The position numbers and the translations under genes were made by a program. Positions 6,210-42,446 of a stretch of DNA of 64,000 bases are shown in pieces (the first letter of the stretch is position 1; each line of letters opens with the position of its first letter). Below the pieces are notes generated by a model. That model saw only the letters and a list, made by a program, of their open reading frames with translations. It did not search any database and was not told where the DNA came from. Source of the stretch: Roseivivax halodurans JCM 10272 (GTDB taxonomy: Bacteria > Pseudomonadota > Alphaproteobacteria > Rhodobacterales > Rhodobacteraceae); NCBI RefSeq assembly GCF_000521785.1, contig NZ_JALZ01000009.1:1-64000 (forward strand), in the 5' to 3' direction.

Positions 6210-7235
6210 ATGAACCTCAAGGAGCTCGCGCAGCACCTCAATCTCTCTCCGACGACCGTGAGCCGGGCGCTGAACGGCTACCCGGAGGTGAAAGAGACGA
6301 CCCGCCGCCGCGTGGAAGAGGCGGCGCGCGAATTCAACTACATGCCGAATGCCTGGGCCAAGGGGCTTGCGACCGGGCGGTCGATGTCGATTGGACACGT
6401 GATGCCGACGTCCAAGATGCACGAGATGGTCAATCCCGTCTTCGGCGACTTCATCACCGGCGCTTCGGAGACCTACGTCAAGGAAGGCTACGACCTGAAA
6501 CTGACCCCCGTCGACGACGGCGACGAGGCGCAGCGCTACCGCGCCCTGCGGACCCGCGGCAATGTCGACGGGTTCATCGTGCACGGACCGCATCTGACCG
6601 ACGGACGCATCGCGCTTCTGCGCGAGATCGGCCTCCCCTTCGTCGTGCACGGCCGGGCATCCAACATGCCGGCCGATTATCCCTGGATCGACATGAACAA
6701 CCGCCGCGCCTTCGAGCGCGCGACCGCGCTGCTGATCGAGCTTGGGCACCGGCGCATCGCGTTGGTCAACGGGCTCGAGCACATGGACTTCGCCCACCGG
6801 CGGCGCGAGGGCTTCCTGGCTGCTCTCGCGTCCCACGGGCTCGTTCCCGATCCCGCGCTCATGCGGGGCGGCGAGATGACCGAGCGGCTGGGATACCGGG
6901 CGGCAGCGGACATGCTCGACGGAACCTCGCCGCCGACCGCCTTCCTCGTTTCGTCCATGGTCACCGCGATCGGCGTGCGCCGCGCGCTGCACGAGCGCGG
7001 GCTTGAGCTTGGGCGGGACGTGTCGGTGATCATCCATGACGACGATCTGGGCTACCTGCGAAATGGCGACGATGTACCGATCTTCACTGCGACGCGCGCC
7101 TCGGTGCGCGAGGCGGGTCGCCGCGCGGCCGAGATGCTCCTGCGGATGATCCGCGATCCGGCTTGCGCCCCGTTGCAAAGCCTGATGGAAGCTGAACTGA
7201 TACTCGGACGATCGACCGGCCCCGCGCCGCGCTAG
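6210..7235 (+). CDS. aglR: LacI-family regulator of alpha-glucoside use
   Basis: A 341-residue DNA-binding repressor. The LacI helix-turn-helix begins at residue 2 (NLKELAQHLNLSPTTVSRAL), followed by the hinge and a periplasmic-binding-protein-like sugar-sensing domain. The frame is open back to a GTG at 6111, but ATG at 6210 matches the start position of LacI proteins and leaves the operator palindrome outside the gene. Divergent from aglE; the ligand is presumably an imported alpha-glucoside or glucose. The regulatory assignment is by position and family. Confidence 0.85.
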   Translation: MNLKELAQHLNLSPTTVSRALNGYPEVKETTRRRVEEAAREFNYMPNAWAKGLATGRSMSIGHVMPTSKMHEMVNPVFGDFITGASETYVKEGYDLKLTPVDDGDEAQRYRALRTRGNVDGFIVHGPHLTDGRIALLREIGLPFVVHGRASNMPADYPWIDMNNRRAFERATALLIELGHRRIALVNGLEHMDFAHRRREGFLAALASHGLVPDPALMRGGEMTERLGYRAAADMLDGTSPPTAFLVSSMVTAIGVRRALHERGLELGRDVSVIIHDDDLGYLRNGDDVPIFTATRASVREAGRRAAEMLLRMIRDPACAPLQSLMEAELILGRSTGPAPR

Positions 7236-7254
7236 ACCCCGGAGTTTTCCACAC

Positions 7255-8586
7255 ATGCGCCATGCCCGCACCGATTTCCCCGACGGTTTCCTCTTCGGAA
7301 CCGCGACCTCGAGCTACCAGATCGAGGGTCACGCCTTCGGCGGGGCCGGCCCGACGCATTGGGACACGTTCGCGGCGACCCCCGGCAACGTGGTGCGGGC
7401 CGAGAACGGCGACCGGGCCTGCGACCATTACCATCTCTGGGAACAGGATCTCGACCTCGTCGCGGCGGCGGGCTTCGACGCCTATCGCTTCTCTACCTCC
7501 TGGGCGCGCGTGATGCCCGAGGGCACCGGCCAGGCCAATCCCGAGGGGCTCGACTTCTACGACCGGCTCGTCGACGGGATGCTGCAGCGCGGCCTCAAGC
7601 CCTGCGCGACGCTCTATCACTGGGAGCTCCCATCGGCGCTGGCCGACCGCGGCGGCTGGACCAACCGGGACGTGGCAAGCTGGTTCACCGAGTTCACCGA
7701 GACCGTCATGGAGCGGATCGGCGACCGCGTTTTCTCGGTCGCCCCGATCAACGAGCCCTGGTGCGTCGGCTGGATGAGCCATTTCCTGGGCCTGCACGCG
7801 CCCGGACTGCGCGACATCCGCGCGACCGCCCGGGCCATGCACCACGTCCTTCTGGCGCACGGAAAATCCATCGAGGCGATGCGCGCGATGGGCGTGCAGA
7901 ACCTCGGCGGCGTCTTCAACATGGAATGGCCCGAACCGGTCGACGACAGCGACGCCGCCGCGCGCGCTGCCTGGACATATGACGGCTATTACAACCGCTT
8001 CTTCCTCGACGGGATCTTCAAGGGCGCCTATCCCGACAGCGTCCTCGAAGGCTTCGCGCCGCACCTGCCCAAGGGCTACGCGGACGATTTCCCGACCATC
8101 GGCCAGAAGCTCGACTGGTGCGGGATCAACTATTACACCCGCAAGGTGCTCGCTCCGAACGACGGGCCGTGGCCCTCGCTCGACGAGGTCGAAGGGCCGT
8201 TGCCGAAGACCTTCATGGGCTGGGAAATCTATCCCGACGGGCTCTATGAGTTTCTTAAGCGCACCGCCCGGGAATACACGGGCGACATCCCGCTCTATGT
8301 CACCGAAAACGGAATGGCCGCACCGGACGCGATCCAAAGCGGGATCGTCGACGATCCGGACCGCATCGCGTATCTCGAGGACCACATGGACGCCGTTCGA
8401 CGCGCCGTCGCGGAGGGCGTGCCGGTGTCGGGCTACTTCATCTGGTCCCTCCTCGACAATTACGAATGGGCGCTCGGCTACGAGAAGCGTTTCGGCCTCG
8501 TACATGTCGATTTCGACACGCTGGTTCGCACGCCCAAGGCGTCGTACCACGCTCTCAAATCCGCACTCGGAGGCGGCAATGCCTGA
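7255..8586 (+). CDS. Beta-glucosidase (GH1)
   Basis: A 443-residue cytoplasmic retaining glycosidase that releases glucose from cellobiose-like beta-glucosides. The N-terminus FPDGFLFGTATSSYQIEG is typical of GH1. The acid/base Glu is in INEPW near residue 167 and the nucleophile Glu in VTENG near 350. No signal peptide. It starts 19 bases after aglR and overlaps glk by 8 bases, so aglR, this gene and glk probably form one transcript, giving the cell a route from beta- as well as alpha-linked glucose to glucose 6-phosphate. Confidence 0.93.
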   Translation: MRHARTDFPDGFLFGTATSSYQIEGHAFGGAGPTHWDTFAATPGNVVRAENGDRACDHYHLWEQDLDLVAAAGFDAYRFSTSWARVMPEGTGQANPEGLDFYDRLVDGMLQRGLKPCATLYHWELPSALADRGGWTNRDVASWFTEFTETVMERIGDRVFSVAPINEPWCVGWMSHFLGLHAPGLRDIRATARAMHHVLLAHGKSIEAMRAMGVQNLGGVFNMEWPEPVDDSDAAARAAWTYDGYYNRFFLDGIFKGAYPDSVLEGFAPHLPKGYADDFPTIGQKLDWCGINYYTRKVLAPNDGPWPSLDEVEGPLPKTFMGWEIYPDGLYEFLKRTAREYTGDIPLYVTENGMAAPDAIQSGIVDDPDRIAYLEDHMDAVRRAVAEGVPVSGYFIWSLLDNYEWALGYEKRFGLVHVDFDTLVRTPKASYHALKSALGGGNA

Positions 8587-9535
8587 TCTTGCCGTAGTCG
8601 CCGATATCGGCGGCACGAACACCCGCGTCGCCCTCGCCGAAGGGACCGCTGTCGATCCGTCCAGCATCGAACGCTTCCGGAACTCCGACCATTCGGGACT
8701 GCCCGAGGTGCTTGAGCGTTACCTGCGCAATCGCAACATATCGCCCGCGGCGGCCTGCGTCGCCATGGCCGGCCCGGTGCGCGACGGGATCGGCACGCTC
8801 ACGAATCTCGATTGGAGCGTCGACCGCGACGTCGTTGCCGAAGCGACCGGTGCCGGCATCGTCGCCGTGCTGAATGATCTGCAGGCGCAGGGTCACGCCG
8901 TCGACCATCTGACGGCCGACACCCTGACCGAGATCCTGCCGGGACAGACCGACCGCCCGCATGCGGCCAAGCTAGTCATCGGGGTTGGCACCGGCCTCAA
9001 CGCCGCCCCGGTCTTCCGCCTCGGCGGGCAGACGCTCGTGCCGCCGTCGGAATCGGGCCATGTCAGCCTGCCCGTCCACACCGAGGAAGAGTTGCGCCTG
9101 CGCGACTGGCTGGTCCGCGTGCACGGAACCGCCGGCGCCGAAGAGGCGCTCTCGGGACGCGGGTTCGAGCGTATCCACGCCTTTCTCTGCGAGGAGACCG
9201 GCGCATCTCCGCTCGACGCAGAGGCGATTATGGCAGCCTATGCCGCGGGAGATCCGCTGGCGCGCAGGGCCATGGAAATCTTCGCGCGGCTTCTCGGGCA
9301 AATGGCCGGCAACCTCGCCCTGACCCTCCTGCCCTTCGGCGGCATCTACATGTGCGGCGGCGTCGCGCGTCATTTCGGGCCTCACCTCGTTGATCTCGGC
9401 TTCGGCGAGGCGTTCCGCGACAAGGGGCGGTTCTCGGGCTTCATGGACCAGTTCTCGGTGCAGCTCGTCACCGACGATTACGCAGCGCTGACGGGGTCCG
9501 CCGCCCACCTCGCCGAGCGCATGGGGCAGGCCTGA
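8579..9535 (+). CDS. glk: Glucokinase
   Basis: A 318-residue ATP-dependent hexokinase of the bacterial Glk family that phosphorylates free glucose. The phosphate-1 motif VADIGGTNTRVAL is at the N-terminus and the second phosphate loop VIGVGTGLN in the middle. The sugar-contact segment reads SESGHVSLP where enterobacterial Glk has EGGH. The ATG at 8579 overlaps the end of the beta-glucosidase gene by 8 bases, indicating translational coupling. Length matches the family. It supplies glucose 6-phosphate to Pgm and the glycogen genes downstream. Confidence 0.92.
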   Translation: MPDLAVVADIGGTNTRVALAEGTAVDPSSIERFRNSDHSGLPEVLERYLRNRNISPAAACVAMAGPVRDGIGTLTNLDWSVDRDVVAEATGAGIVAVLNDLQAQGHAVDHLTADTLTEILPGQTDRPHAAKLVIGVGTGLNAAPVFRLGGQTLVPPSESGHVSLPVHTEEELRLRDWLVRVHGTAGAEEALSGRGFERIHAFLCEETGASPLDAEAIMAAYAAGDPLARRAMEIFARLLGQMAGNLALTLLPFGGIYMCGGVARHFGPHLVDLGFGEAFRDKGRFSGFMDQFSVQLVTDDYAALTGSAAHLAERMGQA

Positions 9536-9665
9536 GATCCTGCCCAACCTTCAGGCGAGCGGCACATTCCATGGCTTTTTCGGCATACGACGCTTGCCAA
9601 ACGCGCGCGTTCACGCTTGATGACGGAGGGGAGGAGGTTCCGCCGGCCATCCAAAGGAGCTCGAC

Positions 9666-12062
9666 ATGAACATTGCCACGCTGCGCACCGTCTCGAGTGA
9701 CAATCTTCGCGACGCGATCCTGAGCCATCTGGCCTACAGCTTCGGCAAGACCCCCGAGGCGGCGCATCTCGAGGATTGGCGGATGGCGCTCTCCTATGCC
9801 GTACGCGACCGCATGGTCGAGGCGTGGTTCGACGCCACCCGGCGCACGTACGACGCGGGTGCAAAGCGGGTCTACTACCTCTCGATGGAATTCCTGATCG
9901 GGCGTCTCCTCGAGGACGGGATCGTGAACCTCCGTCTTGTCGATCAGGCCCGCGCGGCGCTGACCGAGCTCGGCCTCGACTACCACACCGTACTCGAGAA
10001 CGAGCCAGACGCCGCCCTCGGCAATGGCGGGCTCGGACGGCTGGCCGCGTGTTTCCTCGAATCCCTCTCGACGCTCGGCGTCCCGGCGATGGGCTACGGC
10101 ATCCGTTACGAGCACGGCCTCTTCCGCCAGTCCTTTGCGGACGGACGCCAGATGGAAGCGCCGGAGACCTGGCTGCTGCAACGCCACGCCTGGGAGTTCG
10201 AGCGTCCCGAGACGCGCTACACGATCGGCTTCGGCGGCGAGGTGCGCGACGAGGCCGGCAGAATGGTCTGGACCCCCGACGAACAGGTCTGCGCCGAGGC
10301 GTTCGATACGCCGATCGCAGGCTGGAAGGGCCGCTGGGTGAACACGCTCAGGCTCTGGTCTGCCCAGTCCGTACGTCCGTTCGACCTCGACAGCTTCAAC
10401 CGCGGCGATTTCGAAGGTGCCGCTCAGCCCGAGGCGCTCGCCCGCACGATCTCCCGCGTGCTCTATCCCGACGACACCACAGAGCAGGGAAAGAAACTGC
10501 GGCTGAAGCAGGAATTCTTCTTCACCGCGGCCGCGCTGCGCGACATCCTGCGCCGGTTCGACAGCGAATACAATGACGTCGCGCTCCTGCCCTCGAAGGT
10601 CGCCATCCAGCTCAACGACACGCACCCTGCGATCGCGGGTCCGGAACTGGTGCGGCTCCTCCACGACGAACGGGGCCTGCCTTTCGAGGAGGCGCAGAAA
10701 ATCGCGCAAGGCTGCCTCAATTACACCAACCACACGCTTCTGCCCGAAGCGCTGGAGAGCTGGAACGAGGGCATTTTCGGCCAGCTCCTGCCGCGCCATA
10801 TCCAGATCGTCGACCGGATCGACGACGCGCACGCCAAGGCGAACCCGTCGCGTGGATTCTCGATGCGCGCCAATCACCAGGTCAGGATGGGCGAGCTCAG
10901 CTTCGTGATGGCGAACCGCGTGAACGGCGTCTCGGCGCTGCATACCGGCCTGATGAAGGAAACCGTCTTCAAGGAGCTCCACCGGCTCCATCCGGAGCGG
11001 ATCGTGAACGAGACAAACGGCGTGACGCCGCGCCGGTGGCTCCTATCCTGCAACCCGCGCCTCTCGGGCCTCGTCTCCGAAACCATCGGATCCGGCTGGA
11101 TCGACGACCTCGAGAGCCTCTCGGACCTGGAACCCCATGTCGACGATGCCGGTTGGCGCGACCTCTTTGCTGCGGCGAAGCGGTCGAACAAGTCCGAACT
11201 CGCCGCATGGATGTCGGACACTCACGGCCTGCGGGTCGATCCCGCGGCCATGTTCGATGTGCAGATCAAGCGCATGCACGAATACAAGCGCCAGCACCTC
11301 AACATCCTCGAGGCGATCGCGCACTGGCAGGAGATCAAGGACGCCCCGAACGCCGAATGGACACCGCGGGTCAAGATCTTCGCCGGCAAGGCCGCGCCCG
11401 GCTACGTATTCGCCAAGGACATCATCCGCCTGATCAACGACGTCTCGTCCGTGCTGAATGCCGACGCAGAAACCTGTGACAAGTTGCAGGTGATCTTCCT
11501 GCCGAACTACAACGTCACCTTGGCTGAGCGGCTCATTCCCGCGGCCGATCTCTCCGAGCAGATATCGACGGCCGGCAAGGAAGCCTCCGGCACCGGCAAC
11601 ATGAAATTCGCCATGAACGGCGCGCCGACGATCGGCACACTCGACGGCGCCAACGTGGAAATCCGCGAACGCGTCGGCGCCGAGAACTTCTTTCTCTTCG
11701 GCATGACCGCGGAGGAGGTGGTTGCGCGGCGCGAGGTGGAGGGCCATGCGGCCAAGGCGATCGAGGCCGATCCGCGTCTTGCCCGGGCACTCGAGGCGAT
11801 CCGCAGCGGAATGTTCTCTCCGGATGAGCCCGACCGCTACCGCCACATCGTCGAGAACCTGTCCGGCCACGACTACTTCCTCGTCTCGTCGGACTTTACC
11901 GATTACTGGCGTGCCCAGCGCGAGGTGGATCGGGCCTACGCGGACGCGGCGAGCTGGACGCGGATGGCGGCGCTCAACACGGCGCGCTCCGGCTGGTTCT
12001 CGTCCGACCGGACCATCCGCGGTTACATGGCCGATATCTGGGACGCCAAGGGCCTGATCTGA
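9666..12062 (+). CDS. glgP: Glycogen phosphorylase
   Basis: A 798-residue GT35 enzyme that removes glucose 1-phosphate from the non-reducing ends of glycogen using pyridoxal phosphate. The cofactor-lysine region EASGTGNMKFAMNGAPTIG lies around residues 637-655, and the N-terminal half carries the phosphorylase active-site segment NGGLGRLAACFLESLSTLG. Start ATG 9666 has AAAGGAG at 6-base spacing. First gene of the glycogen run; 157 bases, with no clear terminator, separate it from glgB. Length is normal for bacterial GlgP. Confidence 0.96.
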   Translation: MNIATLRTVSSDNLRDAILSHLAYSFGKTPEAAHLEDWRMALSYAVRDRMVEAWFDATRRTYDAGAKRVYYLSMEFLIGRLLEDGIVNLRLVDQARAALTELGLDYHTVLENEPDAALGNGGLGRLAACFLESLSTLGVPAMGYGIRYEHGLFRQSFADGRQMEAPETWLLQRHAWEFERPETRYTIGFGGEVRDEAGRMVWTPDEQVCAEAFDTPIAGWKGRWVNTLRLWSAQSVRPFDLDSFNRGDFEGAAQPEALARTISRVLYPDDTTEQGKKLRLKQEFFFTAAALRDILRRFDSEYNDVALLPSKVAIQLNDTHPAIAGPELVRLLHDERGLPFEEAQKIAQGCLNYTNHTLLPEALESWNEGIFGQLLPRHIQIVDRIDDAHAKANPSRGFSMRANHQVRMGELSFVMANRVNGVSALHTGLMKETVFKELHRLHPERIVNETNGVTPRRWLLSCNPRLSGLVSETIGSGWIDDLESLSDLEPHVDDAGWRDLFAAAKRSNKSELAAWMSDTHGLRVDPAAMFDVQIKRMHEYKRQHLNILEAIAHWQEIKDAPNAEWTPRVKIFAGKAAPGYVFAKDIIRLINDVSSVLNADAETCDKLQVIFLPNYNVTLAERLIPAADLSEQISTAGKEASGTGNMKFAMNGAPTIGTLDGANVEIRERVGAENFFLFGMTAEEVVARREVEGHAAKAIEADPRLARALEAIRSGMFSPDEPDRYRHIVENLSGHDYFLVSSDFTDYWRAQREVDRAYADAASWTRMAALNTARSGWFSSDRTIRGYMADIWDAKGLI

Positions 12063-19257: not shown

Positions 19258-21024
<1,767 letters not shown>

Positions 21025-21031
21025 TCCCTGC

Positions 21032-21070
21032 CGCAGGCGCGGGCAAAGTGCGAATTTGCCCGCGCCTGCG
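21032..21070 (+). terminator. 16-bp hairpin after pgm
   Basis: A perfect 16-bp inverted repeat (21032-21047 with 21055-21070) with a 7-base loop, starting seven bases after the pgm stop. The stem ends in AAA/TTT at the loop side and no T-tract follows on the plus strand, so it is terminator-like but atypical. It probably marks the 3' end or a processing point of the glgP-pgm transcript. Confidence 0.6.
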
Positions 21071-21148
21071 AAGCCGTGACCGGGAGCTGACCTTGCCGGC
21101 CGGGACATGCCGCGTAGGTTCCCTCCGACAGCCGAACGAGGAGAGACC

Positions 21149-23536
21149 ATGTCCCTGGCCGAACGCATCACCTTCGACGACGCCGCCTCCACATCCCGCG
21201 CGGAAGCCTGTGAGCAGATCCTGACCAACGCCCCGTCGCGCTTCGAGGCGGAACAGGAGATTGCCCGTGGGCTCGGCGGGCAGGTCGATGGGGACGGACT
21301 CGCGAGCTTCGGCTTCTGGGTGCCCGAGCTTCAGGACCTGCGTGTCCCCTCGGGCGACATCTTCCTCGAAATCCTCAGCCCGACCGAACCCCTGGACCTC
21401 ACCCGAGCGCACCAGGACGTCCGGTTCGAGCGGATTTATGTGCCCGCGATCCGGCTCGAGGCACATGCATTCGCCTGCGTCCGCGGCATGAAGGCCGGCA
21501 GCCGCGAGCAGATCGGCGACTTCTACAGCCTCGTCTGGCGCGATGCCGAGGATCAGTGGCACAGGGTCCTCGATCCGCTGGCGATGTCCCTGCCCTTCGG
21601 CGCGATGGCTCCGGCAGAGCTCTATGATGTGGACGCGATGCTGGCCGCCCGCGGAGACAAGGCATACTGGCAGAGCTACTCAGGGGATGCGCCGCACAAG
21701 TTCGGCCCCTGTTCCAACATCCTGCAGATTCACATCCCGACCGCGACGGCGGGCGGCACGATCGCCTCCCTCACGCGGCAGTTCGAGCGCCTTGCCAGCC
21801 GCGTCGAGGCCGGCCTTCCGATGGATCCCGCCGACCAGATCTATCTCGGCTACGAGGCGGTCCAGCTCCTGCCGGTGGAGCCGACAACCGTCTACGAGGC
21901 AGGCCCGGACTTCTGGCAGGAAAGCGATGGTACCGAGGACGGGGTGACCGTCTCTCTGCTCCGCCCGGATACGACGAATTGGGGCTACGACAACGTCATC
22001 GCGGGCATGGCGACCGTGAACCCTGTGCTTCTGGAATCGGGACGGCCGGACGAGCTCGTCGACCTCGCGAGCGCGCTGCACAATTTTCCCGGCAAACCCA
22101 AGAAGCTGGTCTTCGACGTGGTCTATGGCCATTCCGACAACCAGGGCCTGCGCGTGCTCAACAGCCACTTCTTCGCCGGCCCGAACATGTACGGCCAGAA
22201 CCTTGCCTACCAGACACCCGCGGTCCGTGCGATCCTGCTGGAGATGCAGCGCCGCAAGGTGAATTTCGGTGCGGACGGCGTGCGGGTCGACGGCGCGCAG
22301 GACTTCAAGTGGTGGGACAGCGGCGCGCAGGTTCTGCGCCACGACGACGAGTACCTGCAGAGCATGGCGGACGTGGTCCAGGAGGTCGCCGGCACACGCT
22401 ACCGGCCCTGGTTCATCTTCGAGGACGGCCGCCCCTGGCCGAACGAGGATTGGGAGATGTCCTCAACCTACCGCGCCGTCATCGAGACGCAGCGCGACGG
22501 GGACGTGTTCCAGTGGGGTCCGCTCACCTTCGCCCACAATACGCCGTTCCTCTACACGTTCTGGCTGGGCAAGTACTGGCGGATCCGGGAATGTCTCACG
22601 AAAGGCTCGAACTGGATCTCGGGCACATCGAACCACGACACGCTCCGCCGCGGCACGCAGGTGAGCCCCAAGCTCAACATCAACACCCGCCTCGGCACCA
22701 CGCGGATGGAAATCCTCGACAAGGCCTATGACAACCCCGCCGCCCACACCCTGACCTATGTGGCGCTGCCGGGCGTGCCGATGGATTTCCTCAACGCCAT
22801 GGCCCGTGCCTCGTGGGGCTTCATCCGCAACCAGGACGACCGCTACGGGGTCAAGGTCGTGGCGGAAGAGGCGATCTCGCTGCGCTGGCAGGTGGACGAG
22901 TATTCCTATTCGATGCCCGCCAACTTCTCGCGCCTCAAGGCGCTCGGGTTCGAGACTCGTGCGGATCTCGCGCGCTTCTGCACCTTCCTGCCCGCGCTGG
23001 TCGAGGTGACGGATTACGACCTCGAGGACATCGCGCGTCTTCTGAATACAACCGAGCCGAGGCTCTCGGGGCCGCTCTACACGCCGGAAACGCTCAAGGA
23101 GGTGGCGCGCGCGTGGATGGATGACATGCACGAATACTGCAACATCGGCCACTCGCTCGGGGGTCTCGATCCGGTACAGCTCGATTTCACGCTGGCGCTC
23201 CGCGAGTTCCGTGCCGCACGCCCCTGGCTTCGCGACAATTACGGAGCGGATGACCATTTCGGCTATGTCGAGCCGACCGACGGACGCACGCTCTTCACCT
23301 CCCTGAGGCATGGCCCGGATGGCGAGCAGGTGTACTCGATCATCCACATGGAGGGGAAGGAGACCGCCGACTTCGACCCGCTCCGCCTGAAGATCCCGGG
23401 TCTCGAAGGCATGGGGTGGGAATGCGTGCTGCGCAGTCCCGGCATCGGGCGCGACTACGTGTCGGGGCCGATCGTGATGCGCGATTCCATGGCGCTCGTC
23501 TTCACTCGACCCGGACGAGGCGCTCCTTCTTCTTGA
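21149..23536 (+). CDS. GH13-like glycosidase, probable glucosylglycerol hydrolase
   Basis: A 795-residue cytoplasmic protein of the alpha-amylase superfamily with all three catalytic regions: GADGVRVDGAQDF near 374 (nucleophile Asp), FIFEDGRPWP near 423 (Glu) and SGTSNHDTLRRG near 492 (His-Asp). The rest does not resemble amylases, branching enzymes or sucrose phosphorylases. The overall sequence recalls the GghA/Slr1670 glucosylglycerol hydrolase group, which degrades the compatible solute glucosylglycerol to glucose and glycerol; this rests on recognition, not alignment. ATG 21149 has GAGGAGA upstream. The stop codon lies inside a dispersed repeat at the 3' end. Confidence 0.65.
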   Translation: MSLAERITFDDAASTSRAEACEQILTNAPSRFEAEQEIARGLGGQVDGDGLASFGFWVPELQDLRVPSGDIFLEILSPTEPLDLTRAHQDVRFERIYVPAIRLEAHAFACVRGMKAGSREQIGDFYSLVWRDAEDQWHRVLDPLAMSLPFGAMAPAELYDVDAMLAARGDKAYWQSYSGDAPHKFGPCSNILQIHIPTATAGGTIASLTRQFERLASRVEAGLPMDPADQIYLGYEAVQLLPVEPTTVYEAGPDFWQESDGTEDGVTVSLLRPDTTNWGYDNVIAGMATVNPVLLESGRPDELVDLASALHNFPGKPKKLVFDVVYGHSDNQGLRVLNSHFFAGPNMYGQNLAYQTPAVRAILLEMQRRKVNFGADGVRVDGAQDFKWWDSGAQVLRHDDEYLQSMADVVQEVAGTRYRPWFIFEDGRPWPNEDWEMSSTYRAVIETQRDGDVFQWGPLTFAHNTPFLYTFWLGKYWRIRECLTKGSNWISGTSNHDTLRRGTQVSPKLNINTRLGTTRMEILDKAYDNPAAHTLTYVALPGVPMDFLNAMARASWGFIRNQDDRYGVKVVAEEAISLRWQVDEYSYSMPANFSRLKALGFETRADLARFCTFLPALVEVTDYDLEDIARLLNTTEPRLSGPLYTPETLKEVARAWMDDMHEYCNIGHSLGGLDPVQLDFTLALREFRAARPWLRDNYGADDHFGYVEPTDGRTLFTSLRHGPDGEQVYSIIHMEGKETADFDPLRLKIPGLEGMGWECVLRSPGIGRDYVSGPIVMRDSMALVFTRPGRGAPSS

Positions 23537-24550: not shown

Positions 24551-25432
24551 TCAGCTGTCGAGCGGAACGAGGTCGACGCTGTGTTTCGACATCTGGCGAC
24601 CCGAGGTCCGGAGACTGCCCTTCACCGGGGCTACATCCGAGTAGTCGCGCCCGACCGCCACAACGATGTGATCGACGCCGACCAGTAGATCGTTCGTCGG
24701 ATCGTACTCGACCCAACCGGCCTCGGTCCCGCACCAGGCGCGTACCCAGGCATGCATCGCATCCGCCCCCTGGAGACGCGGCCGTCCCTTGGGCGGCGTG
24801 GTGCGCAGGTATCCCGACACGTAGCCTGCGGGAATGCCGAGCGACCGGAGGCCCGCGATCATGACGTGGGTGAAATCCTGGCAGACCCCGTGGCGCGCGG
24901 CAAAGGCCTCGGATGGCGCGGTGTCAACGGTCGTCGCTGCCGCATCGAAGCGCATGTGCCCGTGGATCGCCCGTCCGAGGGCGAGGACGCTGCCGAGCAC
25001 GGTCATGTCGGGCGCCACGCTCGTCTCGGCGAAATCCGCGATGCCGGGGTCGGGCCCGACGCGCGGAGACGGGGCCCGGAAATGATGCGGCTCGTCCGGG
25101 CCGAGACCGCGCCGCGCGGCGATCTCCGAAGCGAGCCCCGCCCGGCGTGGGGTGAGGTCGAGCGTCGGCGGCCGCGCGAGACGCTCCACCCGCGCGGACA
25201 GGCGGGCGGTCAGCTTGCGAAGCGGTTCGTGGAAGGACATGCCTGCGACGGAATTGCCCCAGAAGTCGACGCGGTGCCGGATCTCGGCGGGATCCGGCGA
25301 GATCTCGAGACGCACGTTCTCGACGCTCTGCACGCCGTCGATCCGGCGCGGCGCGACGCGCAGGACGTTCCGGGCGCTTGGCGCCGCGGCGCCGTAATCG
25401 TATTCGATCCGGAGGGTCAGATCGTAACGCAT
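24551..25432 (-). CDS. Transglutaminase-like cysteine protease-fold protein
   Basis: A 293-residue protein with the bacterial transglutaminase N-terminal beta domain (MRYDLTLRIEYDY) and a papain-like core. The catalytic triad is complete: Cys184 (RHGVCQDFTHVM), His227 (DAMHAWVRAWCG) and Asp244 (EYDPTNDLL). Bacterial members are thought to be peptidases or amide-forming enzymes rather than classical cross-linkers. It starts 4 bases after the ATP-grasp/alpha-E gene, so the two are coupled. No signal peptide. Confidence 0.88.
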   Translation of the reverse strand: MRYDLTLRIEYDYGAAAPSARNVLRVAPRRIDGVQSVENVRLEISPDPAEIRHRVDFWGNSVAGMSFHEPLRKLTARLSARVERLARPPTLDLTPRRAGLASEIAARRGLGPDEPHHFRAPSPRVGPDPGIADFAETSVAPDMTVLGSVLALGRAIHGHMRFDAAATTVDTAPSEAFAARHGVCQDFTHVMIAGLRSLGIPAGYVSGYLRTTPPKGRPRLQGADAMHAWVRAWCGTEAGWVEYDPTNDLLVGVDHIVVAVGRDYSDVAPVKGSLRTSGRQMSKHSVDLVPLDS

Positions 25433-25436
25433 GGGC

Positions 25437-27833
25437 TCATACCAGATAAGCGGCGGTGATCTTCTCGCCGAGGTCCTGAAGCGATCTCCCCAGCGCCGCC
25501 AGCGCGGTGCCGTCGAGCTCGTGCGGTTCGGCGGTGGCAAGCTGCGTGTCGATGCGCAGGGCGATCCGCATCGCCTCGGACAGCGTTCCGTTGACTTCGG
25601 CCCCCGGCAGCTCGCGCGCGAGAGACTGGATCAGACAGGTCTGGAACCGCACGGAGCGAGGGTTGCGGTGGTCGAGCGCGAGCAGGTCGATCACGGTCGA
25701 GCGGTTGGTCTCGATCTGGTAGCGTCGACGGTGAGTCATCACGCTGTCGCCGACCTCGATCGCGATGTCGAAACAGCCCTCAGGAGCCTCCGGCGCGGCG
25801 AAATCGGCAAGCGTCGCCACCATGTTCTGCGCGCGTTCGAGCGCGCGCCCGATCGACAGGAAGCGCCAGCCCTGGAAGCGGTACATGTTGTCGTGGACGA
25901 GGCCCGAAAAACCGGCCGAGCCGCGCAGGAACTGCCCCAGCGCCCGGGCCGCCTCATCGCCCGGCTGCAGGTGACGGGTCTGGTCCACGATCTCTTCCCG
26001 GAGCGCGCGGAGCGCCATCCAGCCGTCGATCGAGAACCGGTCGCGAACCTTCGACGCCGACCGGATCGCCCGGTCCATCGTCGCCGTCACGGCCCCCGGG
26101 GCTGCGATGTTGCGCGGCACCCCGAGGCTGCGCAGATGCAGGTCGAGCCGCGCAACGCGCGGATCATCGAGCCGCCCCGTTTCGGCGAGACGCAGGTGAT
26201 AGGCGCGCAGGAGCCGCACCATCGTTTCGGCGCGCTCCACGTATCGCCCGAGCCAGAGAAGGTTGTCCGCCGCCCGTGAGGGAAGCAGGCTGTCGGCGGC
26301 GCGCTGAAACGTGGTGCCCGTCTCGTCGAGCGTTTCGTCCTCGACCCGCGCGCCCGACACGATCCAGACATCCGCCACCCGGCCGCCGCGGCGCAGCGCC
26401 AGGGCGGTCGCGTCCTCCGAGCGGCCGATGCGGGCGTAGCCGCCGGGCATCACCGTCCATCCCCGCGCCGTCCGCGCGGCGAAGACCCGCAGCATCACCG
26501 GCCGTGCCTTGAACGTGCCGTCTTCGTAGACCGGTGTCGTCGAGAGCGAGACCGCCTCCTGCCCGACGAGCCCGCCCGCGCCGGCCTGGATCCATTCGGC
26601 CGGATCGAGGCTTCGCCCGTCCTGGAACCGCCCACCGATCAGAGTCGCATCGTCCGTCTCGAACGGCAATTCCTGGCTCAGGGCGTCGCCAACCATCATG
26701 CGGTTGAGGTTCTGCGTGACGTAGGTGCGCTCCCGCGCCTGCCCGCACCACCAGGTCGCGATATTGGGCAGCTTGAGCCGCTGTCCGGTCAGGTACTCAG
26801 CAATTCGCGGCATGAAGGCGAGGAAGGCCCTTGTCTGCACGAGGCCGGCACCGATCGCGTTCGCCATGCAGACATTGCCCTCCCGCAGCGCCGAAACGAG
26901 ACCGGGCGTGCCGAGCTGGGAGCGGTCGTCGAGTTCGAGCGGATCGGCAAAGGCGGAGTCGAGGCGGCGCCAGAGCACGGAGATCGGTTTCAGCCCCGCC
27001 ACCGTCCTGACCATGACCCGCCCGCCAACGACGGTCAGGTCCTCGCCCTCGAGCAGCATCAATCCGAGATAGCGGGCGATATAGGCGTGTTCGAAATAGG
27101 TCTCGGTCCCGAGGCCCGGCGTCAGGATCGCCATGCGTCCGTCGAGCGATTGCGCCGAGCGTTTCAGCGCGCCGCGGAACGCCCGGAAGAACCCTGCGAG
27201 CCGGTGAATGTTGTCGTGGTCGAACGGGTCCGAGAAGGTCCGCTTGGTCGCGACACGGTTCTCGAGAGCGAACCCCGCGCCCGAAGGCGCCTCCGTCCGG
27301 TCACCGAGGACAAACCACGATCCGTCGGGGGCACGCCCAAGCTCGAAGGCCACGAAATGCAGGTAGCGCCCCGATGGCGGACGCTGACCCACCATCGGAC
27401 GCAGGAAGCCCGGGTTGCCGGCGACGAGTTCGGGCGGCAGCAGCCCCTCGCGCACCAGCCAGCCCGGCCCGTAGAGATCGGCGAGCACCTGTTCGAGCAC
27501 CTCGGCGCGCTGCTTGACTCCCTCGGCAATGCCCTGCCATTCGTCCTCCCCGAGGATCACGGGCACGTGGGAGAGCGGCCAGTCGCGCTCGGCGGGGCCG
27601 TCATCGGCATGCTGGCGGAAGAACACCCCCGCATCGCGGAGGTAGCGGTCGCCGCGGGCAAAGCGCCGGGCGATGTCCTCGGCGGAGAGATGCGCGAACC
27701 GTTCGAGGAACGGGCGCCAGACCGCGCGTACAGTACCGTCCGGGCCGAGCATCTCGTCGGCCACGCCGTCCGGCACCCTGTACCCTTCGATCAGGGCGGC
27801 GATGGCGTCCTGCGCCTCGGCTCTCTGCCCCAT
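25437..27833 (-). CDS. Circularly permuted ATP-grasp protein fused to alpha-E domain
   Basis: A 798-residue fusion. The first 470 or so residues are a circularly permuted ATP-grasp (DUF404/407 type) with segments such as GLGTETYFEHAYIARYLG, YTLRVMVRTVAGLK-like core and KLPNIATWWCGQ; the last 300 residues (from about SLLPSRAADNLLWLGRYVERAE) are the helical alpha-E domain (DUF403). ATP-grasp enzymes couple ATP hydrolysis to carboxylate-amine ligation, so a peptide-bond-forming role is inferred. In many genomes the two parts are separate neighbouring genes. ATG 27833 follows AAAGGA by 12 bases; a GTG at 27854 is the alternative. Lies between two transglutaminase genes. Confidence 0.87.
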   Translation of the reverse strand: MGQRAEAQDAIAALIEGYRVPDGVADEMLGPDGTVRAVWRPFLERFAHLSAEDIARRFARGDRYLRDAGVFFRQHADDGPAERDWPLSHVPVILGEDEWQGIAEGVKQRAEVLEQVLADLYGPGWLVREGLLPPELVAGNPGFLRPMVGQRPPSGRYLHFVAFELGRAPDGSWFVLGDRTEAPSGAGFALENRVATKRTFSDPFDHDNIHRLAGFFRAFRGALKRSAQSLDGRMAILTPGLGTETYFEHAYIARYLGLMLLEGEDLTVVGGRVMVRTVAGLKPISVLWRRLDSAFADPLELDDRSQLGTPGLVSALREGNVCMANAIGAGLVQTRAFLAFMPRIAEYLTGQRLKLPNIATWWCGQARERTYVTQNLNRMMVGDALSQELPFETDDATLIGGRFQDGRSLDPAEWIQAGAGGLVGQEAVSLSTTPVYEDGTFKARPVMLRVFAARTARGWTVMPGGYARIGRSEDATALALRRGGRVADVWIVSGARVEDETLDETGTTFQRAADSLLPSRAADNLLWLGRYVERAETMVRLLRAYHLRLAETGRLDDPRVARLDLHLRSLGVPRNIAAPGAVTATMDRAIRSASKVRDRFSIDGWMALRALREEIVDQTRHLQPGDEAARALGQFLRGSAGFSGLVHDNMYRFQGWRFLSIGRALERAQNMVATLADFAAPEAPEGCFDIAIEVGDSVMTHRRRYQIETNRSTVIDLLALDHRNPRSVRFQTCLIQSLARELPGAEVNGTLSEAMRIALRIDTQLATAEPHELDGTALAALGRSLQDLGEKITAAYLV

Positions 27834-27891
27834 GCCTGCTTGCGGTCCTTTCACCGGGGCACGAGGTCCGCGCCGCTACCGGACGTCTCTA

Positions 27892-30800
27892 TCACATCCC
27901 GGGCGGCCGGCGCAGGTCCAGCGTGAAGGGAAATTCGGGGTGCGGCAGGTCGGTCGCGGGAACGTAGGCTCCGGGCGTGTGCCCCATGGGCTCGAAGCGG
28001 GCGAGGCGCCGCGCCTCGGCCTCGTTGCCGTTCACCGGGAAAGTGTCGTAGTTCCGCCCGCCCGGATGCGCGACGTGGTAGGTGCAGCCGCCGAGCGCCC
28101 TGCCTGTCCAGGTGTCGTAGACGTCGAAGGTCAGAGGCGCGTGGACGGGAAGCGTCGGATGCAGCGCCTCGGCCGGCTGCCACGCCTTGAAGCGCACGCC
28201 GGCGACCGAGACGCCGCTTTCCTGCGTCTTTGTCATCGGCATCCGGCGGCCGTTACAGTGGATCTCGTAGCGGGCGGCGTTGGCGGTCGTCATCATCACC
28301 TGCAACCGCTCGACCGAACTGTCGGTGTAGCGCACCGTGCCCCCGATCGCGCCGCGCTCCCCGAGCACGTGCCAGGGCTCCAGCGCCTGCCGCAACTCGA
28401 GATGCACGCCCTCGTACTCGACCTGCCCGCAGAACGGGAAGCGGAACTCGGCCTGCGCCTCGAACCAGACCGGATCGAGCGCGAAGCCGTGCTCGCCAAG
28501 GTCCCGCAACACGTCGAGGAAGTCGGCCCAAAGGAAATGCGGCAGCATGAACCTGTCGTGGAGTTCGGTGCCCCACCGCACCGGGCGCCCCGAGATGGGG
28601 GTCTGCCAGCAACGCGCGATGATCGCCCGGAGGAGAACCTGCTGCGCGAGGCTCATCTTGGGGTCCGGAGGCATCTCGAAGCCGCGGAACTCCACGAGGC
28701 CGAGGCGTCCCGTCGGACCGTCCGGCGAGAAGAGCTTGTCGATGCAGATCTCGGCGCGGTGGGTGTTGCCGGTCACATCGATCAGGATGTTGCGCAGGAG
28801 CCGGTCCACGAGCCACGGCGGCGGCGCGCCCTCGCCCGGATCGGGGATGTTCGCGAGGGCGATCTCGAGCTCGTAGAGCGTGTCGTGCCGCGCCTCGTCG
28901 ATCCGCGGCGCCTGGGAGGTCGGGCCGATGAAGAGGCCCGAGAAGAGGTAGCTGAGCGAGGGATGCCGCTGCCAGAGCAGGATGAGCGACTTCAGAAGAT
29001 CGGGGCGCCGCAGGAAGGGCGAGTCGTTCGGCGTCGCGCCGCCGACGACGACGTGGTTCCCGCCCCCGGTGCCGGTGTGCCGCCCGTCGATCATGAACTT
29101 GTCGGCGCCGAGCCGGCATTGCCGCGCCTCCTCGTAGACCGCCTCGGTCGTCGCGACGCATTCCTCCCAGGAGGAGGCGGGGTGGATGTTCACCTCGATC
29201 ACGCCCGGGTCGGGCGCGACGCGGATGACATTCATGCGCGGATCATGCGGCGGGGCGTAGCCCTCGATATGCACGGGCATGCCCATCCGTTTCGCCGTGC
29301 GCTCGGCCGCCGCAACGAGATCGAGGTAATCCTCGATCGTCTCCACCGGGGGCATGAAGACGCAGAGCTTGCCCGCCCGCGGCTCGACCGAAAGCGCGGT
29401 CCGCACGTGCCCCTGGACCGGCGACAGCGATTGCTGGCGGACGTCCTGCACCGGCGGCAGCGGCACCGGGGCCGAGACCGGCTGCGCGCGGTCGCCCCGG
29501 CTTTCGGGACCGTGATCGAAGGCGGGCAGCTCGCCCCGCGGCTCCGTCGGATCGGCCGGATAGGTGTAGGGATATTGCGAGGGCGGCACGTAGGGGAGGC
29601 TGCCGAGAGGGATGCGGTAGCCGACGGGCGAGTCGCCTGGCACGAGGAATACCTTCCCGCGCCGGAGCCGCCAGCGCTCGGACACCCATTTTCGTCCGGC
29701 GGCCTTCGACTGCCACGCCTGGATCGGCAGCACGTAGCCCGTGGGCTGCGTGAGCCCGCGCTCGAAGACGCTCGCCATGCGATGGCGCTCCTCGGCATCC
29801 TCAAGCTTGTTGTTCGAGGGATCCACGTTCTCGGGAAGCATCGCCTCCTTCAGCAGCCACTCCCCAGGGTCCTCGTAGGCCGGGAGCACGTGATCGCCCT
29901 CGACGCCAAGCTCACTCGCCAAGGTCTGAAGGAAACTGCCAGCGACATCGGCATTCGCGCCCATCTGGGCGCCTTCCTGCGCGACGAGGTCCGGATCGGT
30001 CCAGATCGGCCGGCCGTCCTTTCGCCAGTAGAGCGAGAAGGTCCAGCGCGGCAGCGTCTCGCCCGGATACCACTTGCCCTGCCCGTAATGCAGAAAGCCC
30101 CCGGGCGCGAAACGGGTCCGGAGCCGGCGGATCAGCGAGTCGGCGAGAGAGCGCTTCATCGGCCCGACCGCGGCGGTGTTCCATTCGTCGCTTTCGTAAT
30201 CGTCGATCGACACGAAGGTGGGCTCGCCGCCCATGGTGAGGCGCACATCACCCGCGTTCAGGGTTGCGTCCACCTTCCGGCCGAGGGCGTTCAGATCGGC
30301 CCAAGCGTCGTCCGAGAAGGGCTTTGTGATGCGCGGATGCTCCGCGACCCGTTTCACCGTCATGTCGAAGTGGAAATCGGTCTTCACGGCGCCGGCGGCC
30401 GTGAAACCGCCCGCGATCGGCGCGGCATTGCGATAATGCGGCGTCGCGGCAAGCGGGATGTGGCTTTCTCCGGCGAGCAGGCCGGAGGTCGGATCGAGCC
30501 CGATCCATCCCGCGCCGGGGAGATAGATCTCAACCCAGGCATGCAGGTCGGTGAAGTCTACGTCCGTCCCCGAGGGGCCGTCGAGCGCCTCGAGGTCGGG
30601 TTTGAGCTGGATGAGATAGCCCGAGACGAAACGCGCGGCGAAACCCAGGTGCCGCGCCAGGTTTACCAGCAGCCACGCGGAATCCCGGCACGAGCCCGAT
30701 CCCTTGACCAGCGTCTCCTCGGGCGACTGCACCCCCGGCTCCATCCGGATGAGGTAGGTCACGTCCGACGCCACCCGCGCGTTGAGCCCGACGAGCATAT

Positions 30801-31227
30801 CCACCGTCCGCTGCTCCTCCCGCGGGATCGCCGCGAGATACTCCGCGAAACGCGGCCCGGTCTCGACCGGCTTGCGGTAGATGGTCAGGTCGTCGCCCAG
30901 GTCTTGCGGATACTCGAACGGCCAGGTCTCTGCCGCCTCCTCGACGAAGAAGTCGAACGGGTTGTAGACCGACATGTCCGCAACGAGATCGACCTCGATC
31001 CGGAACTCGCGCACAGGTTCAGGAAAGACGAACCGGGCCAGCCAGTTGCCGTAGGGATCCTGCTGGTGGTTCACGAAATGCGGGACCGGTCCGACCTTCA
31101 GCGAATGCGAGATCACCCGGGTGCGCGAATGCGGCGCGGGCCGAAGGCGCACGATCTGGGGGCCGAGGTTCACGGTCCTGTCGTAGGTGTAATGGGTGAG
31201 ATGGTGGATCGCGGCGTGAATGGCCAT
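27892..31227 (-). CDS. Transglutaminase-like protein with DUF2126 domain
   Basis: A 1111-residue protein, first gene of the ATP-grasp cluster. Residues 1-290 are a transglutaminase N-terminal domain plus core, with catalytic Cys180 ([12 protein letters not shown]), His229 ([11 protein letters not shown]) and Asp245 (GLDPTSGL). The remaining 800 residues match DUF2126, with conserved-looking [12 protein letters not shown] and [14 protein letters not shown]. The function of DUF2126 is unknown. A GC hairpin lies just upstream of the start codon. Ends 58 bases before the ATP-grasp/alpha-E gene. No signal peptide is visible. Confidence 0.9.
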
Positions 31228-31240
31228 CAGTGTGCAGGCT

Positions 31241-31259
31241 CCCGGGAGGACGTCCCGGG
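31241..31259 (-). promoter_or_regulatory. Hairpin in the leader of the DUF2126 gene
   Basis: A 7-bp GC stem (31241-31247 with 31253-31259) ends 13 bases before the start codon at 31227. The only purine-rich candidate ribosome site on the minus strand, GGGAG, overlaps its 3' arm, so folding could limit translation. No T-run follows, so it is not an obvious terminator. Confidence 0.3.
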
Positions 31260-31362: not shown

Positions 31363-31524
31363 TCAGACCTCGTGCAACGGCTTCTCGCAGACCGGCATCG
31401 CGACGCAGGCCGAGGCGATCTCTTCGGCTTCTCCTTTGTGGGCGAGGAAATGCCCGAGCCCGATCAACGCGGCAAGCAATGCCGCCTTGGCCAGCGTGAA
31501 GTTTCGCGGAGCGTGTGCGCGCAT
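31363..31524 (-). CDS. Hypothetical small membrane or exported protein
   Basis: A 53-residue frame MRAHAPRNFTLAKAALLAALIG... with one hydrophobic segment (about residues 12-26) and two Cys residues in the short tail (ASACVAMPVC). ATG 31524 is preceded by GAGGGAGG at 6-7 bases, which supports real translation over the longer open frame from 31596. No family recognised. It lies 135 bases upstream of the DUF2126 gene on the same strand. Confidence 0.45.
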   Translation of the reverse strand: MRAHAPRNFTLAKAALLAALIGLGHFLAHKGEAEEIASACVAMPVCEKPLHEV

Positions 31525-31687: not shown

Positions 31688-31761
31688 GCGGGTGTAGCTC
31701 AATGGTAGAGCAGCAGCTTCCCAAGCTGACGACGAGGGTTCGATTCCCTTCACCCGCTCCA
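31688..31761 (+). tRNA. tRNA-Gly (CCC)
   Basis: A 74-base cloverleaf with the CCA end encoded. Acceptor stem GCGGGTG pairs with CACCCGC. D-arm stem GCTC/GAGC. The anticodon loop TTCCCAA gives anticodon CCC; the top pair of that stem is a G-A mismatch. The T-arm has TTCGATT in its loop. It reads GGG codons. Confidence 0.95.
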
Positions 31762-42369: not shown

Positions 42370-42446
42370 CGGGCTATGGCGCAGCCTGGTAGCGCGTCCG
42401 TCTGGGGGACGGAAGGTCGCAGGTTCGAGTCCTGCTAGCCCGACCA
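42370..42446 (+). tRNA. tRNA-Pro (GGG)
   Basis: A 77-base cloverleaf with encoded CCA. Acceptor CGGGCTA pairs with TAGCCCG; D stem GCGC/GCGC; anticodon stem TCCGT/ACGGA around loop CTGGGGG, giving anticodon GGG; T stem GCAGG/CCTGC with TTCGAGT loop. It reads CCC and CCU. Confidence 0.96.

Follow-up and report, generated by a model that had tools for sequence, protein, structure and literature searches.

A cluster of three tightly spaced genes lies on the minus strand of a 64,000-nucleotide stretch of the genome of Roseivivax halodurans JCM 10272 (contig NZ_JALZ01000009.1, positions 1 to 64,000, hereafter the window), encoding a transglutaminase fused to DUF2126, a circularly permuted ATP-grasp protein fused to alpha-E, and a second, stand-alone transglutaminase. 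The question raised by this locus is which of these proteins can be catalytic, and whether the cluster acts alone or with a partner. Systems that combine circularly permuted ATP-grasp, alpha-E, transglutaminase and COOH-NH2 ligase domains were reportedly predicted by Iyer et al. in 2009 to make or modify peptides, and all four domain types are present at the window locus according to Pfam. The reading favoured here, with moderate confidence in the whole, is that of a two-module system acting under nitrogen limitation, in which DUF2126 would be the ligase, the fused ATP-grasp/alpha-E protein a dead subunit, and the ATP-grasp activity would be supplied in trans by a split-type copy (an ATP-grasp encoded separately from alpha-E) on another contig, C31. 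This reading is carried by gene content, conserved gene order, intact transglutaminase triads, the loss of the predicted ATP site, and the near-constant co-occurrence of DUF2126 with the split-type ATP-grasp, as established by sequence comparison. The system is already known in outline, and the useful result is the identification of the proteins that can be catalytic, together with the partner ATP-grasp at a second locus.

Organization of the Cluster

The features of the cluster, in window coordinates and with lengths in amino acids (aa), are as follows.

27892..31227, minus strand: gene 1, transglutaminase fused to DUF2126 (1111 aa, ATG start; Pfam)
30979..31212, minus strand: Bact_transglu_N domain of gene 1 (98.3 bits)
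30490..30816, minus strand: transglutaminase core of gene 1, with Cys180, His229 and Asp245 (Pfam Transglut_core and alignment)
27910..30387, minus strand: DUF2126 domain of gene 1 (1339 bits)
25437..27854, minus strand: gene 2, inactive-looking circularly permuted ATP-grasp fused to alpha-E (805 aa, GTG start)
26427..27563, minus strand: circularly permuted ATP-grasp domain of gene 2 (aa 98-476; Pfam)
26646..26690, minus strand: degenerate ATP-site stretch of gene 2 (aa 389-403), with Gly at the Lys position and without the Gly-rich loop
25443..26285, minus strand: alpha-E domain of gene 2 (aa 524-804), with the ER motifs E540-R541 and E673-R674 kept
24551..25432, minus strand: gene 3, stand-alone transglutaminase (293 aa from the ATG at 25432; Bact_transglu_N and Transglut_core)

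All three genes are complete and carry the domains that an earlier note on this DNA, made from the sequence alone, had assigned to them from their open reading frames (ORFs), as confirmed by Pfam. In the single chain of gene 2, CP_ATPgrasp_2 scores 425 bits (CP_ATPgrasp_1 is matched too) and Alpha-E (PF04168) scores 179 bits against a cut-off of 20.8, while an NCBIfam search of the cluster proteins returned no match at E ≤ 0.01. The start of gene 3 is most likely the ATG at 25432, the listed TTG start at 25540 being probably too early. The DUF2126 gene is separated from the fused gene by 37 nucleotides, and the stop of the fused gene from gene 3 by 4 nucleotides, and neither gap contains a terminator-like site on that strand; the view of the three genes as a conserved operon-like unit is supported.

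Conservation of the cluster was examined in a family sample (81 genomes with DUF2126 among 248, one per genus) and a phylum sample (63 among 200), from whose DUF2126 matches 40 family and 40 phylum loci were picked by hand. A second set, comprising the best 80 of 591 named loci, is biased to close relatives and is nearly all Alphaproteobacteria; in it, gene 1 has its closest named relatives in both Rhodobacteraceae and Rhizobiales, at 70-77% identity. Among the hand-picked loci, 33/40 from the family and 36/40 from the phylum (69/80) contain the fused gene, as do 72 of the best 80 of 591 loci, where a contig end lies within 4.5 kb in four of the eight misses. The fusion, which had been singled out as notable, is therefore the usual state of this paralogue. 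The order DUF2126, fused gene, transglutaminase on one strand is found in 33/40 family and 27/40 phylum loci, and in two further phylum loci the fused gene is on the same strand but upstream of DUF2126.

Loss of the Predicted ATP Site in the Fused Protein

The predicted ATP/Mg site was scored as a set consisting of Lys, the Gly-rich loop, Asp and Asn and was compared in sequence alignments, its function being predicted from the known motifs of ATP-grasp enzymes and from the conservation of these positions among split-type copies. The full set is kept in none of the 144 fused-type sequences, the window included, versus all 42 split-type sequences, and 136 of the 144 keep none of Lys, Asp/Glu and Asn; smaller first alignments (71 fused-type and 41 split-type sequences) gave the same pattern of loss and retention. 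The Lys, the Gly-rich loop, the DxR and the NSSQGGG motif are kept by the split-type copies; in the fused type, free variation is seen where the Lys, the loop, the Asp and the Asn would stand, while flanking anchors such as Arg456 are kept. The two types differ in architecture as well, 142/144 fused-type and 0/42 split-type sequences being joined to alpha-E. Both sets hold close relatives, with 130 and 40 sequences left after the removal of those more than 90% identical, and the 130 non-redundant fused-type sequences form one clade in the tree (support 0.907).

Invariant positions number 15/510 in 142 fused ATP-grasp sequences versus 105/474 in the 42 split-type sequences, and the fully invariant polar residues left in the fused type are D126, R200, D272, D304, N332 and R456. 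In the alpha-E half, E540-R541 and E673-R674 are at least 98% conserved in 142 sequences. The fold of the ATP-grasp half is shared with 3n6x, a putative glutathionylspermidine synthase from Methylobacillus flagellatus (E 1.5e-62, 28% identity), which, unlike gene 2, keeps the Lys and the GSGGYG loop. The predicted structure of the 805-aa fused protein has a predicted local distance difference test (pLDDT) score of 87 and, in a structure search, matches 3n6x (template modelling (TM) score, TMt, 0.86) and glutathione synthetases well.

The fused ATP-grasp thus appears to be a pseudoenzyme with a maintained fold and a lost ATP site; because long open frames are found in the 142 loci sequences and the model is confident, a maintained pseudoenzyme is indicated rather than decay. 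The earlier note had considered this ATP-grasp to be active together with the two transglutaminases, and had made its proposal depend on the catalytic residues of the ATP-grasp being kept; in the 144 fused-type sequences the predicted set of ATP/Mg residues is lost, as judged on sequence alignments. The Pfam text of PF04174 reportedly describes inactive ATP-grasps as often fused to alpha-E, as well as a transglutaminase fused to a circularly permuted COOH-NH2 ligase, so that the lost site corrects the first reading rather more than it adds something new. In practical terms, an assay of the fused ATP-grasp alone would probably give a false negative.

The Split-Type ATP-Grasp and the Anbu Operon at a Second Locus

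A full Anbu operon is located elsewhere in the host genome, on contig C31 (locus L007), with the following genes.

6553-7977, plus strand: split-type ATP-grasp
7979-8938, plus strand: alpha-E
about 8935-9777, plus strand: transglutaminase
9893-10621, plus strand: Anbu, matching solved Anbu proteins with E-values down to 1e-77

Matches to the proteasome family are limited, in this genome, to HslV (contig C7) and this Anbu, so that the window cluster, near which no Anbu gene is found, is no Anbu operon. The absence of Anbu pointed out in the earlier note thus holds for the neighbourhood of the cluster and not for the genome, where the Anbu system is complete and separate. The expectation that an Anbu gene elsewhere would reveal a split system was borne out as to the gene; as to its meaning, the window cluster and the Anbu operon look like two paralogous, co-occurring modules, not one system missing a piece. 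Anbu operons of Yersinia, Pseudomonas and Hyphomicrobium carry paralogous ATP-grasp, alpha-E and transglutaminase genes, of which the host has the full copy on C31; compared with them, the window cluster lacks Anbu, contains DUF2126, and has a fused, inactive-looking ATP-grasp. The Iyer-type system, with its four domain types and its transglutaminase-DUF2126 architecture, is likewise matched in the window by an Anbu-free module with the inactive-looking fused copy, the split copy and Anbu being on the other contig. In Yersinia bercovieri, the ATP-grasp is reported to release phosphate from ATP (PMC6376114).

In the family sample, a split-type ATP-grasp occurs in 80/81 DUF2126 genomes (79/80 at at least 53% identity, plus the host). 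In the phylum sample, it occurs in 63/63 genomes with DUF2126 versus 48/137 without (Fisher p 9e-22). Anbu follows DUF2126 less closely, in 76/81 family DUF2126 genomes versus 97/167 others (Fisher p 1.2e-9) and in 35/63 phylum DUF2126 genomes versus 34/137 others (p 5e-5), and the candidate of Anbu as obligate partner was rejected in favour of the split ATP-grasp. In the family, the partner is usually encoded elsewhere in the genome: the stretch examined around DUF2126 contains a split ATP-grasp in 4 of the 40 family loci, as against 18 of the 40 phylum loci. As part of the joint reading, and with the same moderate confidence, DUF2126 and the split-type ATP-grasp would form a two-locus system; knowledge of the proteins that can bind ATP and of this near-constant partner indicates which genes to express or delete together.

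The Anbu operon is divergent from urtABC (L007:1347-10621 for the two together), UrtA, UrtB and UrtC all scoring above NCBIfam cut-offs. About 5 kb from the Anbu gene, a further transglutaminase-like gene (Bact_transglu_N and Transglut_core) was observed on the minus strand (L007:15723-16775), with no ATP-grasp or alpha-E match beside it within the 20 kb examined. The host genome has four Bact_transglu_N genes in total.

DUF2126 and the Transglutaminases as Candidate Catalysts

A point missed by the earlier note is that DUF2126 itself is a predicted amidoligase, as indicated by its Pfam description, 'putative amidoligase enzyme', and by a weak resemblance to glutamine synthetase. It may be a circularly permuted glutamine-synthetase-like ligase, in line with earlier prediction. 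Among 161 sequences, 128/831 positions of DUF2126 are invariant, including many E, D, H, R and K residues. With the structural model (pLDDT 73.5), the best Foldseek matches are glutamine synthetases, which are weak (E 0.055, TM 0.3 or less), and chains of glutamine synthetase or gamma-glutamylmethylamide synthetase, many of them from shared entries, make up 34 of the 50 listed matches. Circular permutation would lower a structural-match score of this kind. The resemblance agrees with the ligase prediction and does not prove it, and DUF2126 is likely to be the active ligase of the cluster. The term DUF2126 was not met in the literature searched.

Both transglutaminases keep the Cys-His-Asp triad that had been claimed for them. 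Each residue is conserved in 161/161 sequences for gene 1; for gene 3, Cys and His are conserved in 143/143 and Asp in 142/143, with one gap.

Loci without the Fused Gene and Other Neighbours

Among the 11 hand-picked loci without the fused gene, L075 is cut short by the end of a contig, and in L079 the two halves are read in different frames. In loci from family DUF2126 genomes that showed no fused copy, DUF2126 stands beside the split ATP-grasp, alpha-E and Anbu (L103, L104 and L105), beside Anbu (L106), or alone (L067). DUF2126 and the split ATP-grasp thus look like the core of the system, with the fused gene and gene 3 as an add-on. A Caballeronia plasmid has, in 11 kb, a 490-aa ATP-grasp, alpha-E, transglutaminase-DUF2126, an 860-aa ATP-grasp (fused, as judged by size) and a transglutaminase, and among them a single peptidase gene on the opposite strand. 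Separately, a compact arrangement with DUF2126 beside Anbu and no fused gene was observed in L103-L106, L113, L117 and L146, with a split ATP-grasp in 5/7; it is possibly an older form.

The SMP-30 lactonase does follow the window cluster, as had been noted. A role as stand-in for Anbu is not supported, and it was rejected as a functional part, not being a conserved neighbour in either 80-locus set: only L091 besides the window has a relative among the hand-picked loci, there upstream on the opposite strand, and none is found in the best 80 of 591. When neighbouring ORFs with a length of 90 aa or more were first clustered, shadow ORFs and a single merged cluster with 730 members obscured the result; with ORFs overlapping core genes removed, the widest cluster covered 9/81 loci (the 80 and the window), and no further constant neighbour emerged. 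Clustering of small ORFs (20-90 aa) around 161 loci gave no evidence of a precursor peptide, in a crude search whose region ran into the start of the coding sequence. The larger of these clusters look like shadow ORFs by their shared position. Rare acquisition by this lineage, considered because 0/7 other same-family genomes in the phylum draw carried DUF2126, was rejected, given its presence in 81/248 family genomes.

Nitrogen Limitation as a Possible Context

In Burkholderia cenocepacia, I35_5080-83 are in a list of 150 top NtrC-dependent genes under nitrogen limitation, with log2 values of -6.0 to -9.4 (PMC5491218). As in the window, they are described there as an ATP-grasp (DUF404/407), an alpha-E (DUF403), a transglutaminase and a large transglutaminase protein, the last being probably DUF2126, to judge from its description. 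They differ from the window in that ATP-grasp and alpha-E are separate genes, and the strong NtrC dependence was shown for B. cenocepacia, not for the window. In P. putida, comparison of nitrate with ammonium is reported to show PP_2685 (proteasome-like) up by log2 4.4 and PP_2688 (ATP-grasp) up by log2 4.0 (PMC8050072), and PP2685-2687 are reported to be up under nitrogen limitation (PMC3325844). In marine metagenomes, domains of this system are described as correlating with urea-metabolism domains (PMC3597751). A candidate RpoN site is mentioned elsewhere near an ATP-grasp gene of unspecified type (PMC13207237).

In loci other than the window, an excess of sigma-54 sites with two or fewer mismatches was seen before the split ATP-grasp gene (7/39, against 5/195 for control stretches, p 0.0009) and, marginally, before DUF2126 (13/142 against 33/710, p 0.04), these counts being limited to loci that have a recognisable start and enough sequence upstream of it. 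By analogy, a nitrogen-related role may be proposed for this organism. Of other papers, two concern another system, whose membrane transglutaminase is inactive (PMC12096838, PMC12239564), one deals with DUF4047 (PMC13082335), and one does no more than cite Iyer et al. (PMC10318531). No product is named for this system in the literature searched.

Proposed Mechanism and Alternative Explanations

The three genes may be regarded as one module of a widespread two-module system for amide or peptide bonds. The DUF2126 domain, as a glutamine-synthetase-like COOH-NH2 ligase, would be the ATP-dependent ligase of the module, and the two transglutaminases would act on glutamine-type side chains, where amide bonds would be made, exchanged or hydrolysed. 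The ATP-grasp/alpha-E fusion would be a paralogue that has lost catalysis and is retained as a subunit with a structural or regulatory role. ATP-grasp activity would come from the split-type copy on C31, encoded with alpha-E, another transglutaminase and Anbu, and the module would need it in trans, presumably through a physical partnership. Most likely the system would act when nitrogen is limiting, and would first assemble and later recycle an amide-linked peptide or protein modification. The peptide-system reading of the earlier note is retained insofar as the locus fits the Iyer-type system, and altered insofar as the fused ATP-grasp lacks the predicted ATP site. As a tentative extension, possible though doubtful, the fused protein may be a dedicated pseudoenzyme subunit, with partnership in place of catalysis, that couples the DUF2126 ligase-transglutaminase to the catalytically competent split ATP-grasp/alpha-E in a heteromeric two-ligase machine for peptide modification under nitrogen limitation, with Anbu as an optional eraser.

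Several observations weigh against this proposal. The nitrogen data come from relatives in other classes, and sigma-54 control of the window operon was rejected, with 44 matches versus 51.8 expected and no site upstream of gene 1, where the best candidate has 5 mismatches. Adjacency to urt genes, found in 4/21 Anbu loci (the host's own and three with Anbu 75-78% identical, among the own and 20 hand-picked from 173), was rejected as a general rule. Anbu is reported as without peptidase activity and the proteins of its operon as without specific interactions (PMC6376114), and co-expression with operon proteins is reported to have given no altered form of Anbu (PMC5666114). As regards DUF2126, 16 of the 50 listed Foldseek matches are unrelated proteins with similar E-values, and no match of the model to glutamine synthetase was obtained at E ≤ 0.001. 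The co-occurrence tests ignore shared ancestry, and co-occurrence is no proof of interaction; the ATP site of split copies was checked in 42 sequences; and in one genome, G440 (95% complete), the fused copy is the only one seen. No fused copy was seen in 12/80 family DUF2126 genomes, some with incomplete assemblies, so that the dead subunit is dispensable somewhere.

One alternative, rather unlikely in our assessment, is that the module and the Anbu operon co-occur only through shared ancestry or lifestyle and are independent, the product being made by DUF2126 alone. In its favour, the two are unlinked in the host genome (contig C9 versus C31), no split ATP-grasp is within the fetched stretch in 36/40 family loci, and 48/137 phylum genomes without DUF2126 have a split-type ATP-grasp; against it, DUF2126 without a split-type copy occurs in just 1/143 genomes, and physical clustering of the two recurs outside the family. 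It is improbable that the fused ATP-grasp is active through alternative ATP-binding residues, which would make the cluster self-sufficient for peptide synthesis. Its good fold match to glutathione synthetases, the positions common to both types (D185, P190, G192, N199, R200 and R456 in window numbering) and a lysine retained in 6/71 fused-type sequences speak for such activity, against which stand the complete absence of the full set, the freely varying replaced positions and the few invariant polar residues left.

A third possibility, also improbable, is that of a degradation system in which the transglutaminases act as proteases, on the model claimed for the mycobacterial Rv2569c, a putative counterpart of gene 3; two ligase-fold partners fit pure degradation poorly. 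Rv2569c is reported as a protease cleaving E-cadherin, but in the main text of that report it is assigned to the YebA superfamily and the word transglutaminase is not used (PMC11081392).

Further Features Surrounding the Cluster

Upstream of gene 1, a 7-bp inverted repeat (CCCGGGA/TCCCGGG, 5-nucleotide loop) lies at window positions 31241-31259 on the minus strand and ends about 13 nucleotides before the gene 1 start; it may be an operator or a hairpin that controls translation. Between gene 1 and a tRNA-Gly gene (anticodon CCC) at 31688-31761, just upstream of the cluster, an ORF of 53 aa containing a hydrophobic stretch, judged by eye, is found at 31363-31524 on the minus strand; a tRNA-Pro gene lies at 42370-42446. 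At 19393-23536 on the plus strand, a phosphoglucomutase gene is followed by a GHL5 (PF14872) hypothetical glycoside hydrolase, which suggests a sugar-polymer metabolism locus adjoining the cluster.

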